DNA from: Lepidurus packardi
Taxonomy: Eukaryota > Arthropoda > Branchiopoda > Notostraca > Triopsidae
Reading direction: 5' to 3'
Assembly: GCA_023053545.1 (NCBI GenBank)
Contig: JAKZAN010000002.1
Location: 8,862,790 to 8,926,789 of the forward strand
Length of the DNA: 64,000 bases
The translations under genes were made by a program, and so were the position numbers. How positions within the stretch are numbered: position 1 is the first letter of the stretch; every line of letters begins with the position of its first letter. The notes under the pieces were generated by a model. It was not told where the DNA came from. It did no database searches and was given only the letters and a program-made list of their open reading frames with translations. Below are positions 12,501 to 64,000 of the stretch, one piece after another.

Positions 12501-15122
12501 TTATTGGCAGATCTAACGCTTGTACAAATTTTGCGTACCGACTACCAAGAAAGAGTGCATGACAAATAGAAACGTTTTTAGACGAGCTCAACATCAAGAA
12601 GGCGTTTTTGAACTCTTACCGCGATATACGCAAGGTTATACGTTGGGAAATCAAACGTGCACTATTTATAAACTTTTCCTCTGTTGCTGGAGTCTTTCGT
12701 ACACCGTGTGAATTCGTGCACAAATTTCAAGGGGTTTTCTAAATACTTGTACCTGGAAGCATGGCTGTGGAGGTGAACAGTTGTTGACATGACTTTCTCT
12801 TTTTTGGAACGCTTTCTTCCTTCGTCCGTTTCTTTTTCTATTATACGTGAGAAATTGGGGGAAACTGACAACTTACATTGGGAGTTCAATTTGAAATTTC
12901 AATTTCAGTTAAAATCTAATCCTGAACTTGCAGTTTATTTGGAATCTAATTAGGCTCGGAATCGATTTCTTTTTATTAGGAGCGATAAAGTTGGAATCGA
13001 ATTAAATTTTAATCTCGATCCTAATCATGATTAGAACAACCAGTGTCGTTTTAAGCTTTATTTGGACGGGAAGAAAAGACTTACGAACTAAATTTTGACT
13101 TTAAGATTTTGAATTTCAAGCTAAATGTTTTCCCTTTTTTTCATTTTGCAGTCTGGGACGCTTGAATTGACGAGTGCCGCACGAGAAAGATTGGAGCGCT
13201 TGCATTTGGGGATTGGCGTATCCATCATGGAAGTCCTGCAACTTCACCAGCAGCAACGGCCGCGCCCAACGGGCATCACTACGAGCGTCCCGGTTGGCAC
13301 GACTCTCCTAACGCCCGAGTTGGAGGGCTTGGAGTTGCCGAGTACCGTCGCCAGAAGCGCTGCCTCCGACACGGGTGGCGGTTCAAACGCCGTCAGCGAC
13401 TCGGACAGCGACAGTGGCATTGATTTTGCCGAGGAAGACGCGCCACTGTCCTCAGCGCGATCAACATCAGGTGACTCGGAATCCTTTTCCTGCTCGAGTC
13501 GGAGTAGCATACTGGTCCCCGGTACGGACGCGGACGCGACCGACCCTGACCAGGATGACTGCGACGAGTTGTCATCGGCGATGACGTCCAATTTGAACTT
13601 GGGTACGAGCGGCAAGCCTGCCTACTACGCTTCCACGCCGGCCAGCAAAGCCGTCACGTGGCAACGCCAGCGCTTCGCCGTCCTCAGCTTCGACCAAGTA
13701 AGACGATTACATGACGTCATGAACGAGGTCGTCCTCATCCACGGCCGCGGTAACTTCCCGACCCTGGAGCTCCGTCTGCGCGACCTGGTCAACGTAGTGC
13801 GGACCAAGCTCGAGGCCGACTCGGTGGTCGTCAAAGACATTCGCCTCAACGGCGGCGCCGCGTCCTACGTCCTGTCGTTGTCGGGCACGGGCAGATCTAC
13901 CAACGCTCCCTATGACGGGCAGCAGCAATCTTATAATGACTTGGATCTCATCTTTGGTGTGGACTTGTCGTCGGCGCGGAGCTACGACCGGATCAAGAAC
14001 GCCGTCTTGGAGTCGCTCTTGGATTTCCTGCCCGCCGGCGTGTCCCGGACGCGGATGTTATCTTGTTCGCTGAAGGAAGCTTACGTGAGCAAGATGGTCA
14101 AAGTGACCGAAGGCGATAGATGGTCCTTAATCTCGTTAGGAAACCACCGCGGCAAGAACGTAGAACTCAAGTTCGTGCACCACATGCGACGCCAATTTGA
14201 ATTCTCGGTCGACTCATTCCAAATCATCCTGGACTCGCTCCTGCTCTTCTACGACTGCGCCGCCATGCCCATCGGCGAAACCTTTTATCCGACGGTGGTG
14301 GGCGAGTCCGTCTACGCCGACTTCCGCGAAGCCTTACACCATCTGCACCACAAACTTATCGCCACACGTAACCCCGAAGAAATCCGCGGCGGCGGCCTCC
14401 TCAAGTACTGCAACCTGCTGGTCAAAGAGTACCAGCCGGCGAATTCGAGCGAGATCAAGACCTTGGAGCGCTACATGTGCTCCCGCTTCTTCATCGACTT
14501 CCCCGACATCCACCAACAGCGCTGCAAGCTCGAAAACTATCTCTGGAACCATTTCATCGGCACGGACGAGGCCCTCAAGTACGATTTCCTCATGATCCTG
14601 TACTCGGTCGTCGACGATTCCACCGTCTGCCTCATGGGCCACGAGCGACGCCAAACCTTGACGCTCATCGAGGAACTGGCGTGCCAGGCCTACTACGCGG
14701 ATCAACAGGCCGCCGCGATACAGCAACAGCAGCAGGCCATGGCCGTCACCGTTTCGAGTGCTGCTGCCCAGCAGCAGCAGAATTGCAATACCAGCAATGC
14801 CTCGAGTAGCGCGGGAGCGACGCATTTGACCCTCTCGGCCCCTCCCCCGCAGCCCACCTTCCACCACGCTCCGGTCTATGAAGTCCGAATATCCGGCTGC
14901 CAACCCACGGTCGTGTATTCCAGCTCCGGGTACTTTTACGCGCCACTGATGTCCGCACATCATCACCCGCCGCCCCCACCGCCGCCCAATGCGTCGAATG
15001 GCGCCTCCTCGACGGTGTGCGCGACCGCCCCGCCACCTGCTTCCGCGCACACTACCGCCACCTATGCTACCTGTCACTCCAATTCGTGCTCATGCACTTG
15101 TGGGTGGATTGCCTGTTCTTGA
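3594..15122 (+). CDS. TENT5: Terminal nucleotidyltransferase 5 (FAM46) poly(A) polymerase
   Basis: The coding exons are 3594-3641 ([16 protein letters not shown], then a GTAAGG donor) and 13152-15122 (TTTTGCAG acceptor), joined in phase 0 to give 672 aa. TENT5 enzymes add adenosines to mRNA 3' ends and stabilise selected, often secretory, transcripts. The nucleotidyltransferase signature is visible: LNGGAAS at about residue 248, the catalytic pair in YNDLDLIF at about 279-281, and a third acidic residue in FEFSVDSF at about 370. Further family blocks are [26 protein letters not shown] and [14 protein letters not shown]. Vertebrate members have about 390-440 residues. This one is longer because of an N-terminal Ser/Asp-rich region (about 90-155), a loop before the DLD motif, and a tail with polyQ, His and Pro tracts. 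Exon 2 is markedly more GC-rich than its surroundings. The alternative start MFSLFF at 13125 lies in intron sequence and was rejected. Confidence 0.94.
4449..4470. promoter_or_regulatory. Palindromic double E-box with TA-rich core
   Basis: Two CACGTG boxes flank the ten bases CTATATATAC, making a 22-bp element that is palindromic except for one base pair on each side of the core. A third CACGTG lies at 4566-4571, and another, overlapping a CRE-like TGACGTA, at 3680-3690. CACGTG is bound by bHLH and bHLH-PAS factors. The position in TENT5 intron 1 suggests, but does not prove, an intronic enhancer. Confidence 0.35.
10739..10754. repeat. Poly-G run (16 G)
   Basis: An uninterrupted run of 16 G residues lies inside TENT5 intron 1. 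A comparable run of 14 C residues lies at 2506-2519. Such tracts can form G-quadruplexes and are also frequent sites of sequencing or assembly error. Confidence 0.7.
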
Positions 15123-26000: not shown

Positions 26001-28784
26001 GAGAGGGAGAATAACGTCTTTTTTTCTGATCCCAAGATTTTTCTTTCTTTTCTTGAATTTTTTTTTGCACCTGCCTCTGTGGTGGCCTGTAACCTGCATG
26101 CTCCTTGTCTCGTTTCTCGCTAACACGATGAAAACATGAAGGCAAACTACTTTTACTTCCATCTCTTTTCACTGCGAGAAGGGCATGGGCTCTCCCATAT
26201 GCGAGTCTCGTTTTTACTGTAATTTTCCATACACTTCCTCGCATGCTGAGCAAATACCCTTCAACTTTAATAGAGCCGTTGATTAATTCGTGTTTTTTTT
26301 TTATGCCTTTCACATCACACCCATTACTGTAATGAAATTCGAACTGTTTACAAACTACAATTGAAATTAGCTTTCATGTTCGAAGTTCTCAAGTGGAACT
26401 ATGTCAACAGCTGGAGCTTTTTTGGGAAAAGAGCATTTTTGGAGCCAATTACATTTGTAGCACGCGTTTAACTCGTTTCCGCATTTTGCGCAACGTGGTT
26501 TACACATATGCAGAAACGAAAAAGGAGCCCAAATTCTCATTGAACGCTTTCGTGCAGGATGAAGTACACACAGGAAGTCGAACGCATAAGCATTAGAGCT
26601 TTGAGAAGAGGGATACATTGAAGAGATGAAAGGATAGAATTTGGTAACGGATCAAAATGCAATACATTTTAAAAGCAAAACATTAATCAACAAATTCAAA
26701 TCTTTTTGCAGACTTTTTTGTGAAGAATTATAATTTATTTCAGTTAGATTGCCTTACCTAGCATAGTAACTGAACTCAAGATTTTCTATTCGATTTTTTT
26801 TTGCGTTGTATGACTTTAGAATCAAAAGAAGATAAAGATTCTTCCGTACTGACCTATCGCAAGCAAGATATGGCGTTTGGCCAATATTTCACATTTGAGG
26901 CTGATCCGAATGTCTACTTTCCCAACGCTTGGGACTACGATGCGATAAATACTGAGCAAAGCTCAGAAGGTTACAAAGTTTTAACGTTCTTTGTAAACGT
27001 CAGTGTCTGCCTGTAAGACCCAACTTATGCTACTGATAAATACGGAAAGTAATATAGGAATTTAGAAACATTAAGAGAAGAGTAAGCTTCACTTTTCATG
27101 TTCTATAAAAACCATAAGAAACTCGACTTCGTGACTTGGCGGATCAAATTAAGAGTGTTTTTGGTCTTGAAAAAGTAATTAGAACGTGATAACAAGGGCA
27201 CGTGCAGTTCAAGGATCTAATTTCGGAAGATCCCATAACATCCAAGTTGTTTATACCCCGGACTCCTCCTAAGCTGATTATGAAGAACGAATTACGCAAG
27301 CAAAAGCAGGAAATCAACTTCTTTATTTTTTCTTGTCCCGCTAAAAAATTTAATATAACAACTTTGGAGACTACCCATGCCATCTATTGTGCAGATTGGG
27401 GATAAACAATAAGGTTAAGTGTACCTCTAGGGACAGTCTTACAACTTCGGACTACAAAAGGCGCCAGCTTAGTTGGGTTCCTGGAAAAGCGCTTCCTTTG
27501 AATCCTATTTCGCTAACGCTCCTTTTATATTACAGAAAACGAAATAAAGCTGAATTTTAATTAATCAGCATCAACTAATCCTTGATTTTAATCCATATCG
27601 TATCGATATCTTGAAGAGAAACCTAAGGCTCAGTTGCAAATTGACAACTAACAAGCAAAATGAATTTCGCATGTTAGTAAAATATATACAACTCAATCAC
27701 AAATCATCAAAAACTTTTTGTCAAGTTATATCCTCAACATAATTGTGCAGATATCTGTACATATTTTTTTTATGGCGAATTTGTTCACTCATTCACTAAT
27801 GATTGATTTTCGCTGCAGACCTCATTTTGCTGTACCATTTTGGTAAGTGCAATAATCACCGCAAAATTATCTACTACACAGAAAGGTACAACATTTTTAA
27901 TGTCTAAAAGGCTGTAAACCGCAATTAGAATTCCCCCTTTTTTGTTCTATTTTCCTTTCCATCTCTTTCTATGTTTCCGAGTCCTGAGTTGAAAAGTTGC
28001 CAAACTCCCCTCCAATCTGAGTCGGTAGAAAGTTGACAACTTTATCGCAATTCTCACAAAACTCGGAGATTATAACTTAACAACTCGAAGCCGAAAACTT
28101 GAAAACGGATGTACACGGAAACTTCGCCGAAAAATGGGGCAATACGAGTGGTTCAAGGGAGAAAGACGCGAATTCTTATACGAAGTTGACGGAAGGTTCA
28201 GAGAAACTTCAAATTTCATATATCCCAAGCTCGTAACAAATTACACCTTTCTTAAAATATAAAACTACTTCGACTTCTTAATTAACTTCCAGGCAAATCC
28301 GCAAATGTGTCATAATAACCGGTATAATCCAATATTCACCTTTGTAAATTGGCGTAACTCAGCAGAATTGGCAGCTAAACCCTACTCTGGTTCAGCTTTG
28401 GTCTTCAGGGGTTGGCTGAGGTTTAAATACCGACATTTGTGGTTGGCTACCAGGTAGAACAAAGAAACCGCGCCAAGCCTTTACATCAGCTTGGTGTACT
28501 CAACGTACAAAATTCTGCGAAAAATAACCAAGTCAAAATATTGAAAAATAGGCATACTTTGAAACTGGGGGAACGACTTTAGGGAATTCAATCCGAAGAG
28601 ACATTAACCCAAAAGGAACTTTAATCCAACTTTTTTTTTATAGAAGAATGTAATCCCGTTGTCGGAGAGAACCGAAGCTTATTCCCAAGAAACAACGCTA
28701 AAGCTTTACTTGAAAGTTTGCAACTCACAGATACCACCAGACTTGACCCAAGTAACTCACAAATTGTACGAATAACTATAATTA

Positions 28785-34376: not shown

Positions 34377-52244
<17,868 letters not shown>

Positions 52245-56351: not shown

Positions 56352-59029
56352 CTAGCGTCCGCCTCCTTTGAGGACGCCTCCCTTGTCGGCCTGGCCTTTT
56401 CCGATGCCTGCTTTGATGCTGCTTCCCTTTTTGCCGTCGCCGATCCCCTTGAAGCCCTGGCCACCGCTTCCTTTGATACCATGGCCACCGCTTCCTTTTG
56501 TACCATGATCACCGCTTCCCTTGATGCCTTGGCCGCCGTTTCCTTTGATACCATGGTCGCCGATTCCTTTGATACCATGGTCGCCAATTCCCTTGATACC
56601 ATGGCCGCCGCTTCCCTTGTTACCATGGCCGCCGCTTCCCTTGTTACCATGGTCGCCGATTCCCTTGATACCATGGTCGCCGATTCCCTTGATACCATGG
56701 CCACCGCTTCCCTTGATACCATGGCCACCGCTTCCCTTGATACCATGGCCGCCGGTTCCCTTGATACCATGGCCGCCGATTCCCTTCACACCATGGCCGC
56801 CGATTCCCTTCACACCATGGCCGCCGATTCCCTTCACACCATGGCCGCCGATTCCCTTGATACCATGGCCGCCGATTCCCTTCACACCATGGCCGCCGAT
56901 TCCCTTCACACCATGGCTGCCGATTCCCTTCACACCATGGCTGCCGATTCCCTTGATACCATGGCCGCCGATTCCCTTGATACCATTGCCGCCGATTCCC
57001 TTGATACCATGGCCACCGTTTCCCTTGATACCATGGCCACCGATTCCCTTGATACCATGGCCACCGATTCCCTTGATACCATGGCCGCCGATTCCCTTGT
57101 TACCATGGCCGCCGCTTCCCTTGTTACCATGGCCGCCGCTTCCCTTGTTACCATGGCCGCCGCTTCCTTTGTTACCATGGCCGCCGCTTCCCTTGATACC
57201 ATGGTCGCCGATTCCCTTGATACCATGGTCGCCGATTCCCTTGATACCATGGTCGCTGATTCCCTTGATACCATGGTCGCCGCTTCCTTTGATACCATGG
57301 TCGCCGATTCCCTTGATACCATGGTCGCCGATTCCCTTGATACCATGGTCGCCGCTTCCCTTGTTACCATGGCCGCCGCTTCCCTTGATACCATGGCCGC
57401 CGCTTCCCTTGATACCATGGCTGCCGCTTCCCTTGTTACCATGGCCGCCGCTTCCCTTGATACCATGGTCGCCGATTCCTTTGATACCATGGTCGCCGAT
57501 TCCTTTGATACCATGGTCGCCGATTCCCTTGATACCATGGCCGCCGCTTCCCTTGTTACCATGGCCGCCGCTTCCCTTGTTACCATGGTCGCCGATTCCC
57601 TTGATACCATGGTCGCCGATTCCCTTGATACCATGGCCGCCGCTTCCCTTGATACCATGGTCGCCGATTCCCTTGATACCATGGCCGCCGCTTCCCTTGT
57701 TACCATGGCCGCCGCTTCCCTTGTTACCATGGTCGCCGCTTCCCTTGTTACCATGGCCGCCGCTTCCCTTGATACCATGGTCGCCGATTCCTTTGATACC
57801 ATGGTCGCCGATTCCCTTGATACCATGGCCGCCGCTTCCCTTGATACCCTGGCCGCCTCCCTTGTTGCCATGTCCGTCTTCATCAGATAAGCTGCATTCA
57901 TCTGAGTTTCCGACGTCTTCCTTGTTGCCATGTCCGTCTTCATCAGAAAAGCTGCATTCATCTGAATTTCCACCTTCTCCCTTGTTGCCATGTCCGACGC
58001 CTCCCTTGATACCAGCAACCTTGATACCATGGCCGCCGCTTCCCTTGTTAACATGGCCGCCGCTTCCCTTGATACCATGGTCGCCGATTCCTTTGATACC
58101 ATGGTCGCCGATTCCCTTGATACCATGGTCGTCGATTCCCTTGACACCATGGCCGCCGATTCCCTTTATACCCTGGCCGCCTCCCTTGTTGCCATGTCCG
58201 TCTTCATCAGATAAGCTGCATTCATCTGAGTTTCCGCCGTCTCCCTTGTTGCCATGTCCGACGCCTCCCTTGTTGTCATGTCCGTTTTCATCAGATAAGC
58301 TACGTTCCCTTGAGTTTCCGCCGCCTCCCTTGTTTCCATTTCCGTCTTCATCAGAAAAGCTGTATTCATCTACATTTCCACCGTCTCCCTTGTTGCCATG
58401 TCCGCCGCCTCCCTTGTTGCCATGTCCGCCATCTCCCTTGTTGCCAAGTCCGTCTTCTTCTGAAAAGCTGCATTCATTTAAGTTTCCGCCGTCTGCCTTG
58501 TTGCCATGTACGTCTTGGTTAGAAACTTCATCTGAGCGTCCGCCGTCTCCCTTGTTGCCGTCTCCCTGTCCATCGCCTTCTTCAGGGGAGTTGCATTCCT
58601 CTGCTTGAGCGATACCGAAAGCATTAGCATTACCACCGTATCCAGAATAGCCACCTCCTTGAGCGTCGTCATTGGCGTCAGCATTAGCATTATAACCGCT
58701 ATCGAAAGTGTCATCTTCCCTAGCTTGGGCAGAGGCGTCAGCATGAGCAGTACGGCCTTCTTCAGGAGAGCGTTCATCATCTTCTTCATCTCCCTCAGCG
58801 TGGGCAAAGGTGTCAGCATTAGTATTAGCGTCATAAGAGCCACCTTCGTCGGCTGTATCGAACCTGTACGTCAACGGAACCTCTGGTGTATCACCACTAT
58901 CAACATACTCAGAGCTGGCCCAACAGTAGTAGTGGCAGGCAAATAGTAAACTCGGCAGCAACTAGATTGATACAGAAAAACTTGAACCAAGAGTTTAATT
59001 TGCGGTAGCAATCTTACCCAGATTCTCAT
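56352..59029 (-). CDS. Secreted Gly/Lys-rich octapeptide-repeat protein
   Basis: I do not recognise the family. Exon 1 (59029-59018) encodes only MRIW. After a 56-bp intron, exon 2 (58961-56352) runs to a TAG, giving 873 aa. The joined N-terminus MRIWLLPSLLFACHYYCWA is a good signal peptide split after four codons, as in many arthropod cuticle-type genes. The mature chain has an acidic region with alternating Ala (NANADAN, NANAFGIAQAEE; about residues 20-135), then acidic modules GNSDECSLSDEDGHGNKG (four or five variants, about 160-270 and 330-375). Two blocks of octapeptides of the form GHGIKGIG/GDHGIKGS follow (about 265-320 and 375-850). The composition (Gly, Lys, Ile, His, almost no hydrophobic core) suggests an extracellular structural or matrix protein. 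A paralogue with the same split signal peptide lies at 61372-62116. Silk, cuticle or adhesive function is conjecture. Confidence 0.82.
56490..57851 (-). repeat. 24-bp minisatellite, main block
   Basis: Roughly 55 tandem 24-bp units, typified on the plus strand by CCATGGCCGCCGCTTCCCTT followed by GATA, encode the main octapeptide block of the glycine-rich protein. Units fall into a few interleaved types (I/N, G/D and S/I variants), implying slippage plus unequal exchange. Unit length is a multiple of three with no stop in most frames, so several frames stay open. Confidence 0.95.
58012..58181 (-). repeat. 24-bp minisatellite, second block
   Basis: Six or seven further copies of the same 24-bp unit, separated from the main block by two copies of the SDECS(L/F)SDEDG acidic module. 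The same module recurs on the far side, so the acidic module and the octapeptide run have been duplicated together. Confidence 0.9.
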
Positions 59030-59139
59030 GGTTACGAGTGCAAAGATTACCACAAACTTTTAAGTCAAACTCTTTTAGAGATACACTGTATATTTAACCG
59101 TTCATCATCTAGTCTCTGTTAGGAAGAAAGCAGAACGCC

Positions 59140-59145
59140 TTTATG
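59140..59145 (-). promoter_or_regulatory. TATA-like element of the glycine-rich gene
   Basis: CATAAAGGCG on the minus strand starts about 116 bases upstream of the ATG at 59029. The paralogue has TATAAAGGC at nearly the same distance. The match is imperfect (CATAAA), but the conserved context supports it. Confidence 0.45.
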
Positions 59146-59204
59146 TAGACGGTAGCCATCGCCTAAGTACGTGATAATGAAGCATGAGATAATTTACTGT
59201 TTTG

Positions 59205-59420
59205 CAGGTATACACGTTCACATGTATAAGGCATTTACAAACGCTGTGGTGGAAAATGTATTGGAGCTTATGCTGAACCAGTAGATGCTGATTAGTATTT
59301 GTTCAGAGTAAAGTACACACGAGGTGAAAAGATCAGTGCTTTTTCTGCAGATGTGCCAGAATTCGCCTCGACTTCAGTAGATTCTTTATTGCGCACAGGT
59401 ATAACTTGGTTTTCTTGTTT
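59205..59420. repeat. Upstream unit U1 (beside the glycine-rich gene)
   Basis: One of four diverged copies of a sequence of about 215 bp. Landmarks in order on the plus strand are TGCTGAACCAG, AGATGCTGATT, ACGAGGTGAAAAGATC, AGTGCTTTTCTGC and CAGAATTCG. It lies just upstream of the TATA-like element of the glycine-rich gene. It may be a duplicated promoter-distal region or old enhancer. Confidence 0.5.
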
Positions 59421-60154
59421 AAGAATTACTGTGTTGTCCCTACAGAAGGGCCGGATTAAAAGTACTTGGTGCTTAAGGATAATTAGAAAGATCAATACTG
59501 TAGCAAGTGCCCGTAATTTTACAGTAATTAGGTCTCGTGGTAGATGAATCATTGCTGATAATTGTAGCCGATCGCAGTTGTAACGAATTCCATGGGTCCC
59601 GTATCCGTTTATTTATAGGTGAGATGAAAAGAAAGGAAAGATTACATTTTTGTCGAACACTGCAACGATCTATACAACATACCATGGAGGAGGAGGAGTA
59701 GGTTGTGGTAGTATAGTAGTAGTTTGGAGTTGTTCGTCGTCATCGTCATCGTTACAGTCGTCGCCCTCTTCGTCAGACTCGTCGTCGTTGTCCTTGTCGT
59801 TGCACTTTTTCCCGATTACTCGGGAAGGGACGAATTTCATATGTTAGGATGTACTGGCTGACTCCTGCAGATATATTAATTATTTGATTGAAGGACCTAC
59901 GCTTTGTTTATAACATGCCATCGCCTGACCGTTGTACTGGTATGCGTAGGTATATGCTGGTGCTGGCCGTTCCTACTGAGTCTGGGAACAGAGACCGAGC
60001 GACTGTTTACTATGTCGTAAAACTGGGCCCAAAATGGACTCCTACCACTGACAGTTAGGCAAGGTGTATTTTCATGTTCACAATTGAACACAATATTTAC
60101 ACTTTTGTTCTTAAGACATATGGCGTAATATTTCGCAAATGTAGTGTACACGTC

Positions 60155-60365
60155 ATACACGTATTGATACGTGAGTGACATTTGTCAATGCTGAGTTTGA
60201 AAAGTACCCGGAACTTTTACTGAACCAGATGCGGTTGATTCTTATGTATTCCCAGTAGAATCCGGACGAGGTTGAAAGATCTGTGCTTTTCTGTTGATAT
60301 AATTTCGAATTACTCTGGCTGTCTGCAATAGGTTCTAGTTATGCAGCGTAACTTTGTTTTCTTCT
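60155..60365. repeat. Upstream unit U2 (orphan)
   Basis: Carries the same landmarks in the same order as the other units: TGAACCAG, GATTCTTATGTATTCCC, ACGAGGTTGAAAGATC, TGTGCTTTTCTG. No MRIW-type exon or signal-peptide exon is visible to its left, where the other units have their gene. Confidence 0.45.
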
Positions 60366-60664
60366 TCAGATTACGGCATAGCCTTTGTGAATGCCAGAAA
60401 GGGTAGCTGGAGGCTAAAGGCTAATAGGATAAATGACCTGCGTTGCAGAAAATGTCCTTAATTTTATCATACTAATTTTATTTTTTACAAGTTCCTAATA
60501 TAAATGTATAGCTTTCAAGTCGGACTCTTGTGATATACGGTGATCTACTCCTCACCTCCTCACCAAGTTACTGCGCTTGCATGTAGTACATACAAGACCC
60601 CGATGTATAATGCTAACTTTACCTTCAGCAAATCGTAAGATAATGAAATTATTTGTAGATATAA

Positions 60665-60880
60665 CACATGTTACACGCCAAATGTGTTATTTAGTAAAGC
60701 TCAGTTTAAAAATAGTGAAGTCTGGAATGGTGTTAAACCAGCAGAGGCTAATTCTTTTGTATTCCATGTAGAACGACCCACGAGGTAGAAAGGTTTGCAG
60801 ATTTCTTTACGTCTTGGACTTATCTTGGCATGTTCAGTAGGTCTCTGGCTACGGAGAGCCATAACCATGTTTTCTGTCTT
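60665..60880. repeat. Upstream unit U3 (orphan)
   Basis: The most diverged copy, recognised by AACCAGCAGAGGCTAATTC, TTGTATTCCATGTAGAACGA and CACGAGGTAGAAAGG in order. No gene is recognised between it and U2. Confidence 0.4.
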
Positions 60881-61371
60881 AAAATTACTGCGTAGACAGC
60901 GTAGGGCCATTAAAGGTATTTGTAGCCAACAATGTCGAGTTTCCCCGTAATGTCAGTCAGGAATTCGCTACGTTAGTTTCGCTTGCTTATATACCACTGG
61001 TGTAACGACAATAGTGAATCGCGAAAAAGTAACCGATTGAATTTGTATTCACCAAATAATGAAAGAACTTCCAAAGCGTGATAATGTGAAAATAAACTCA
61101 TCCCGAACGAAGAAGGGAAATTCCAATTGCTTGTTAGCCATCAACTTTTCTTTTTTGAGTTACTCCTTTGGAATCACTATCAATACAGAACTGAGAAAAT
61201 CGTACTAATTTAGGAGCTAGCTCATAGAATTTTCAATCTTTCGTTATAGCCAATGGGATATCCAATGTATTAGCAAATATACCTTGCTGGTTTACAACAA
61301 ATTCAAATAAAAAAATACTCTCACTACGTTTAGTCTGTTAACATTCGTTTTGTTTACGTTAAAATTTCGAA

Positions 61372-62116
61372 TTAATGCTTACCTTTTCTACCATGACCTT
61401 TACGACCTTTATGACCTTTTCCCTTTTTTCCTTTTCCCTTTTTTCCTTTCCCCTTGTGACTACGGCCTCCTCTGCCTCGACTGCAACTTCCACTTTTGCT
61501 GCCGTGTCCTCGGCTTCGACTACCACTTCCACTTCGGCTACATCGTCCAACACTGCTGCGGGACCCAGATCCACAGCTGCTGTTTCTACTCCTGTCACAG
61601 TTTGAAGAACCACATGGACATTAGTAAACGTAGGTTGCAAGATAGTTGATTAAAATTACCGATTGAAATGTCGATTTCTTCTTGTTGGTCCGTACCCGTA
61701 ATAGTACCTGAAATTAGAAAGAAAAGTAAAAGCTAGATATGCCTGTTATACTCTACCTCATTCTGTTTCAACGTACTTTCGAGAAGGACCTCGGTTTCGC
61801 GTCAAACTCGGTTTGTTGCCAAAGTGTTGAGGCCTCCTCTTCAGCGGTGCAAAACGTCTTCCGCTCTTTGCATAGGCTATGGCAACGGCCTGCGCCTTAC
61901 CATTGCCATCTTCACAAGAAGAATCACCTGCGTTAGCGGCGGCCATAGCCAGAGCACTTGCCCCCCTGCGTCCTTCTCCGCTTTCGCAATGACTTCCATC
62001 ACAAGCCCAACAGCAGTATTGACAGGCAAATAATAAACTCCATAATAACTACATGGATGAGGCACATTTGACATGGGAAATTTAATTTGCATTAATTATA
62101 TTACCCAGATTCGCAT
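61372..62116 (-). CDS. Secreted basic Cys/Ser-Arg/Gly-Lys-rich protein, paralogue
   Basis: Unrecognised family, but clearly related to the glycine-rich gene at 56352-59029. Four exons, 62116-62105 (MRIW), 62048-61777, 61707-61660 and 61591-61372, keep phase and give 183 aa. The split signal peptide reads MRIWLLWSLLFACQYCCWA. The mature part has a Cys-containing acidic start (CDGSHCESGEG), an alternating-Ala stretch (KAQAVAIAYAKS), a basic middle, a short Tyr-rich exon (YYYGYGPTRRN), then Ser-Arg-Gly runs with three Cys and a tail of GKGKKGKG-type repeats ending GRKGKH. The last codons GGTAAGCAT also form a strong donor; if used, the next acceptor (61340s) leads to a stop almost at once, so the product barely changes. 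A structural or matrix role is inferred from composition only. Exons 3 and 4 are the least certain. Confidence 0.72.
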
Positions 62117-62229
62117 GGTTTTCGGCACGGAAATTACGAGAGACTTTCAAATCGGGCGTATACAGAAGTGCGGCAGACACTTAACCAGATGTCGACGTAC
62201 TGGTAACTTAAGATGAAAGAGACAAAGCC

Positions 62230-62235
62230 TTTATA
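62230..62235 (-). promoter_or_regulatory. TATA box of the paralogue
   Basis: TATAAAGGC on the minus strand lies 114-119 bases upstream of the ATG. An initiator-like CCAGTA with its A at about 62201 sits 34 bases downstream of the start of the box, the right spacing for a focused promoter. Confidence 0.6.
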
Positions 62236-62294
62236 GAGACAGTGGTACCCATTATATTATATGAAATCTTACCCTGAACAAAGCATATGCTAAT

Positions 62295-62510
62295 ATACTG
62301 TTTTGCAGATAGACAAGTATTCACACGTTTGTGACATTTAGCAGTGCAGAGTTGTAAAAATACTCGTACTTGTGCTGAGCCAGAGGATGTTGACGCTTAG
62401 TTATTCCAAGTTAAGTGCGCATGAGATGGCAAAATTTGATCTTCTCTGCTGAGGTAGTTTCAGAATTCGTCTTGCCTTCTCCAATGGATTGTCCGATTTT
62501 GCAGCCATGA
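62295..62510. repeat. Upstream unit U4 (beside the paralogue)
   Basis: Fourth copy of the upstream unit, with TGCTGAGCCAGAGGATGTTG, GAGATGGCAAAATTTGATC, TCTCTGCTGAGG and CAGAATTCGTCTTGCCTTC in order. It occupies the same position relative to the TATA box as U1 does at the glycine-rich gene. Confidence 0.5.
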
Positions 62511-63968: not shown

Positions 63969-64000
63969 ATGTTTCGTTTGGTAAATCTAATTCTATCTCT
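63969..64000 (+). CDS. Start of a probable secreted-protein gene (partial)
   Basis: ATG TTT CGT TTG is followed at once by GTAAATC, so the first coding exon (63969-63980) would encode only MFRL. Together with the TATA box and a short 5' UTR, this matches the layout of arthropod cuticular and other secreted-protein genes, where the signal peptide is split after about four codons. The rest lies outside the window, so no product can be named. The intron call rests on the donor alone. Confidence 0.45.
   Translation, partial: MFRLVNLILS

Follow-up and report, generated by a model that had tools for sequence, protein, structure and literature searches.

Two tandemly duplicated Lepidurus packardi genes with a conserved putative secretion leader and diverged repetitive bodies

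The stretch of DNA analysed here (the window) comprises 64,000 nucleotides (nt) of contig JAKZAN010000002.1 of the notostracan Lepidurus packardi (G000:C2:8862790-8926789) and contains two minus-strand genes, g59 and g62, separated by 2.3 kb from stop to start. The sequence comparisons identify them as old tandem duplicates in which the signal has been kept and the repetitive bodies have diverged. As an event this is ordinary, combining tandem duplicates, turnover of low-complexity bodies and a mini first exon. It is nevertheless of interest that the duplicates so clearly preserve promoter and secretion leader as their bodies turn over, and that a broken third copy offers a built-in neutral comparison. 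We lean, with modest confidence, towards an ancient duplication that left two probably intact genes, g59 and g62, whose secreted products are structural and not enzymatic and belong to the matrix of a cuticle, an egg case or a gland secretion; the genes may be confined to this lineage.

The splicing of both genes was deduced from sequence signals (Table 1). The MRIW exons and the intron at the same codon, proposed in an earlier note on this DNA, were placed at exact coordinates, with 56-nt phase-0 introns in both genes. The predicted products, p59 and p62, have 873 residues (two exons) and 183 residues (four exons). The irregular 5' part of g59 (58182-58961) is open only in the g59 frame, which has 0 stops; each of the other five has between 3 and 37. 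A long open frame was rejected as proof of coding for the repeat array of the same gene, where another frame is stop-free and further long open reading frames occur. The pattern M[RK][IVLMF]W has four sites within the window (g59, g62, 26540 and 25522), and the window scan found no related leader after the sites at 26540 and 25522.

The alignment of the two genes starts approximately 300 bp upstream and continues through the leader. The bases agree at 163/262 positions in the upstream part, 73/130 from the TATA motif to the 5' untranslated region (UTR), 11/12 in exon 1, 36/55 in the intron, 35/45 in the exon-2 part of the leader and 30/60 directly after it. The segment comprising the ATG, intron and leader showed 74% DNA identity over 119 alignment columns (E about 1e-12 within the window). 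Since promoter, UTR and intron were duplicated together with the leader, the event was a whole-gene tandem duplication and not the fixing of a leader to unrelated bodies, as the earlier note had supposed.

The common leader, in which 16 of 19 residues match, was compared with the 447 bases that could be aligned between the two genes in the upstream region, UTR and intron. It is identical at 46 of its 57 bases, as against 272 of the 447 surrounding bases (61%; P=0.001). In 20,000 neutral simulations a mean of 6 of the 19 residues stayed the same and 16 was never reached. The Nei-Gojobori estimates, based on 19 codons only, were 0.09 for non-synonymous (dN) and 2.2 for synonymous (dS) change. 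The yardstick contains promoter sequence that may itself be constrained; therefore, the test is conservative. By these alignments conservation is higher in the leader than around it, and we count constraint on the leader as established. Judged by eye, it has an Arg at position 2, a hydrophobic run and CWA before the proposed cut, and it is probably a secretion signal.

A third copy, at C2:8958724-8959302, lies 37 kb beyond g59 and is 73% identical to it across promoter and leader. Its first-exon Trp codon reads TAG, its intron acceptor is AA and not AG, the leader Trp codon is TGA, and the match to the coding part of g59 stops after about 210 bases. We read it as a broken 5' fragment. Between g59 and this copy the leader showed no excess of identity (45/57 bases versus 353/455 outside, P=0.48).

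The second trace of constraint was found in the 24-nt tandem array of g59 encoding GxHGxKGx. At the five scaffold codons (G, H, G, K, G), taken over 58 fixed-register units, 286 of 290 residues are retained; 20 of the changes are synonymous and 4 are replacements. Codons 2, 5 and 8 alternate mostly between G/D, I/N/V and I/S, respectively. The synonymous excess in the scaffold has P about 2e-9 on the assumption of independent changes, a value that is indicative only, as array units copy each other. The scaffold thus looks to have been selected as protein. An earlier count of 64 units, in which picking the motif itself fixed the conserved residues, was dropped in favour of the fixed-register set.

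The low-complexity character that the earlier note assigned to both bodies was supported. The repeat block makes p59 rich in Gly, Lys, Ile and His with an eight-residue period (Gly 36%, His 8%). The note had also presented one protein as acidic and the other as basic. This held for p62, with a computed net charge of +36 and an isoelectric point of 11.6 in its mature form, and for the N-terminal block of p59 (-29 over residues 20-150), but residues 260-873 carry +43 and mature p59 is about +1 overall. Hence, p59 is a near-neutral two-block polyampholyte whose acidic N-block offsets the Lys/His repeat block, and p62 is strongly basic. Five Cys occur in mature p59, along with six S[FL]S[DE]E[DN]G blocks, of which four follow EC; mature p62 contains six Cys. 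We infer that these may be phosphorylated or cross-linked. The alternating-Ala segment, claimed as common to both, is a real feature of each: A-x-A occurs 9 times in residues 20-130 of p59 (shuffle mean 2.3, P about 5e-5) and 8 times in residues 20-75 of p62 (shuffle mean 2.2, P about 1e-4). The two segments, however, aligned no better than shuffles (score 32 versus mean 30, P=0.35). Complete divergence of the bodies was likewise an overstatement; no significant alignment was obtained, but both proteins finish in Gly/Lys/His-rich sequence, a likeness of composition only.

In the structural explanation that we prefer, the TATA-type promoter, the mini first exon and the hydrophobic leader ending in CWA would lead to export of the product from the cell. 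Mature p59 would act as a diblock polyampholyte, in which ~58 cationic GxHGxKGx octapeptides come after an acidic alternating-Ala block that carries five Cys and six S-[FL]-S-[DE]-E-[DN]-G motifs, and p62 as a small polycation with six Cys. Expressed in a matrix-forming tissue and secreted, the two might assemble by charge pairing and cross-linking. This explanation is favoured by the shared promoter, UTR, intron and leader, by the constraint on leader and repeat scaffold, by the single open frame in the irregular 5' part of g59, by an adjoining RR cuticle gene, 1.85 kb from g62, whose first exon is laid out in the same way, and by the lack of any enzyme or binding domain detectable by Pfam in either gene. 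Several points weigh against it. Low complexity of a body is no proof that the protein is structural, the leader test covers 57 bases, and the repeat changes in the g59 array are not independent. Exons 3 and 4 of g62 have splice signals as their support, and a second frame of exon 4 is open too. Finally, past the g59 stop (56349-56227, minus strand) a Gly-rich stretch lies in another frame (GNGH, a stop, then QGGEGHGRNEVGGQGLGAQGFGGKEGGGRN), which suggests that the end of g59 was altered or that an exon was overlooked.

Known systems share single traits with the pair. RR cuticular proteins (PF00379, Chitin_bind_4) have, like g59 and g62, a phase-0 mini first exon that splits the signal peptide and a short intron, and they are genomic neighbours, but the RR chitin-binding consensus was not found in g59 or g62 (Pfam, E up to 1). 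The p59 octapeptide resembles collagen-like Gly-X-Y proteins in having Gly at positions 1, 4 and 7 (GxH GxK Gx); unlike in collagen, the triplet slips every eighth residue, no long uninterrupted Gly-X-Y occurs and no Pfam collagen match was obtained. The conserved N- and C-terminal domains of spider spidroins were not found in g59 or g62 by Pfam. Sandcastle-worm cement consists of acidic and basic proteins, and p59 and p62 share with it only the idea of oppositely charged secreted partners; p59, unlike such cement, bears both charges in one chain. Barnacle cement Gly/Ser-rich and silk-like proteins have secreted low-complexity blocks beside charged blocks, as does p59 (PMC5099703). The barnacle GSrCP (Gly/Ser/Thr/Ala-rich, with AaCP19 homology or silk SSXX motifs) differs from p59 in composition.

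Among the other explanations, p59 and p62 might be partners in an underwater glue or silk-like secretion, in which p62 and the cationic p59 repeats would coacervate with the acidic, possibly phosphorylated p59 block. The charge blocks, the repeated SxSDED motifs and the Cys residues fit such a role, the common promoter region could give co-expression, and barnacle cement proteins have low-complexity stretches in alternation with charged ones (PMC5099703). We regard this as unlikely, as p59 nearly neutralises its own charge and, unlike p59, the barnacle proteins are Gly/Ser/Thr/Ala-rich with a preference for SS motifs. The opposite-charge partnership put forward earlier could be viable only as the acidic block of g59 with g62. 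An elaborated version is a co-regulated two-gene secretion system peculiar to this lineage. In it, p59 would be a diblock polyampholyte complementary to itself (an acidic block with Cys and phospho-Ser-like residues, then ~58 His/Lys octapeptides); coacervation with the duplicate-derived small polycation p62, and cross-linking, would yield a matrix that responds to pH or metal. This version seems to us quite unlikely. The GxHGxKGx repeat and the two-block charge design are in any case unusual enough to note, and should the proteins prove to form a glue or matrix, this repeat would represent a new design for a protein polymer.

Capture of a conserved promoter and signal exon by unrelated bodies would account for the absence of significant alignment between the bodies (P=0.35), and the orphan pieces at 60157-60329 and 60736-60792 together with the detached fragment 37 kb away indicate that the 5' end can be copied alone. 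An alternating-Ala segment, however, opens both bodies directly after the leader, and repeat turnover can erase similarity in ordinary duplicates, so that such reuse appears rather improbable. It is very unlikely that one or both genes are decaying relics: the third copy is broken and a Gly-rich relic follows the g59 stop, but leader and repeat scaffold are constrained, frames of 873 and 183 codons are open and the splice signals are intact. The proteins also invite comparison with Gly/His-rich antimicrobial peptides. A function as secreted cationic antimicrobials would agree with the leader, the Gly and His content of p59 and the strong basicity of p62, but p59 is long, with a large acidic block and a repeat of regular period, and no family match was obtained; we consider such a function highly improbable. 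We therefore retain secreted structural proteins as the preferred explanation.

Table 1. Features of g59, g62 and their surroundings (window coordinates; introns and exons by sequence signals).
Feature	Position	Strand	Remarks
g59 exon 1, MRIW (ATGAGAATCTGG)	59018..59029	-	bases compared with g62: 11/12 same
g59 intron 1, 56 nt, phase 0, GTAAGA...CTAG	58962..59017	-	aligned bases same as g62: 36/55
g59 exon 2 to stop	56352..58961	-	leader remainder LLPSLLFACHYYCWA, acidic alternating-Ala + Cys/Ser block, Gly/Lys/His octapeptide block
g59 24-nt tandem array coding GxHGxKGx	56438..57857	-	about 59 copies; 58 fixed-register units analysed
g59 upstream region, homologous to that of g62	59030..59375	-	ATAAAGGC at 59144
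g62 exon 1, MRIW (ATGCGAATCTGG)	62105..62116	-	by sequence
g62 intron 1, 56 nt, phase 0, GTAATA...GTAG	62049..62104	-	by sequence
g62 exon 2	61777..62048	-	leader remainder LLWSLLFACQYCCWA + alternating-Ala segment; leader bases same as g59: 35/45
g62 intron 2, 69 nt, predicted	61776-61708	-	splice signals
g62 exon 3, 48 nt, predicted	61660..61707	-	GT...AG + pyrimidine-rich acceptor
g62 intron 3, 68 nt, predicted	61659-61592	-	splice signals
g62 exon 4, Cys/Ser-Arg then Gly-Lys tail	61372..61591	-	stop at 61372; frame depends on splice model
g62 upstream region, homologous to that of g59	62121..62485	-	TATAAAGGC (ATAAAGGC at 62234)
Orphan upstream-region copy	60157..60329	-	70.7% identity with 62313-62485; no leader found downstream
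Second, shorter upstream relic	60736..60792	-	75% identical to 60223-60278
Neighbouring RR cuticle gene (L064) exon 1, MFRL	63969..63980	+	55-nt intron from 63981, then leader remainder; divergent from g62

The four-codon first exon, regarded previously as a family signature, was rejected as such, since mini first exons also occur in the RR neighbour (MFRL; PF00379 match, E=1e-14) and in an RR array (MKL). A strict scan of the 30 best-scoring of 150 listed PF00379 matches (266 first-look candidates) found an MKL exon of three codons, followed by a short intron and then a hydrophobic exon, at 11/30 loci and at 0/30 on the reverse strand. All 11 positives come from a single tandem array (C3:1.78-1.81 Mb) and are not independent. 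None of the remaining 19 loci, which include L064, passed the strict filter; the layout of L064 was obtained from a looser scan, which also gave wrong joins, and from one further analysis. With mini first exons in both the neighbour and the array, we conclude that genes for secreted structural proteins generally adopt this layout here. A mini first exon interrupting the signal peptide is common in RR cuticular proteins and not defining; the layout, usual in cuticle genes judging from the L. packardi genome and general background, is not in itself new. The L064 product has a tail rich in Gln, Trp and Pro. Very large RR cuticle gene arrays occupy G000:C3 at about 0.4-2.8 Mb and hold many of the 150 listed PF00379 matches, which agree with the arthropod host presumed earlier. 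PF02949 had no match, but as its control matched nowhere either, this result tells little about the taxon.

Relatives were sought in the host genome (108.6 Mb, 344 contigs) and in Pfam, NCBIfam, PDB, viral and prokaryote collections. At E up to 1, Pfam gave no family for the first 303 residues of p59, for p62 or for g59 exon 2 (869 residues), and NCBIfam and PDB sequences contained no relative of either gene. None of 13 pattern matches in viral contigs and none of 149 in prokaryote genomes was confirmed, as expected for an animal gene. The claimed lack of a match to a characterised family thus holds for these collections; they are without arthropod proteomes, so the absence of a named family is not established. 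The literature searches that were made turned up no description of the family. The host genome yielded no convincing further member, in searches that were insensitive to the leader: a 30-residue leader query recovered g59 and the broken copy and missed g62, and another search missed the broken copy. The alternating-Ala segment of g59, or an idealised version of it, recovered g59 only. Weak matches lie on C6 (E=0.008), C3 (0.07) and C4 (4.3), the first two containing an internal stop and none showing a split leader by eye, and a match on C1 (E=0.007) belongs to a different 369-residue frame. Leader, alternating-Ala segment and GHGIKGIGDHGNKGS can serve as markers for seeking relatives.

Between g59 and g62, downstream of the orphan promoter-region copy, lies a small acidic open frame of 56 residues (59840-59673, minus strand; MKFVPSRVIGKKCNDKDNDDESDEEGDD...). 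Elsewhere in the window, an open frame at 13125-15122 (plus strand) contains a full NTP_transf_7 domain (PF07984, TENT5/FAM46-type; E=5e-153). Three exons at about 42900-46800 (plus strand) match dynein heavy-chain motor domains (AAA_5, AAA_8, MT stalk) in a gene that by eye spans ~35 to 53 kb and presumably encodes a cytoplasmic dynein-2 heavy chain. Of the 13 globin matches in the genome, 10 are grouped as five closely spaced pairs of domains (C3:8583227-8698346; C1:8303282-8304135), with three pairs in tandem on C3. This arrangement, which would suit a branchiopod host, we take to resemble the two-domain haemoglobin clusters of water fleas.

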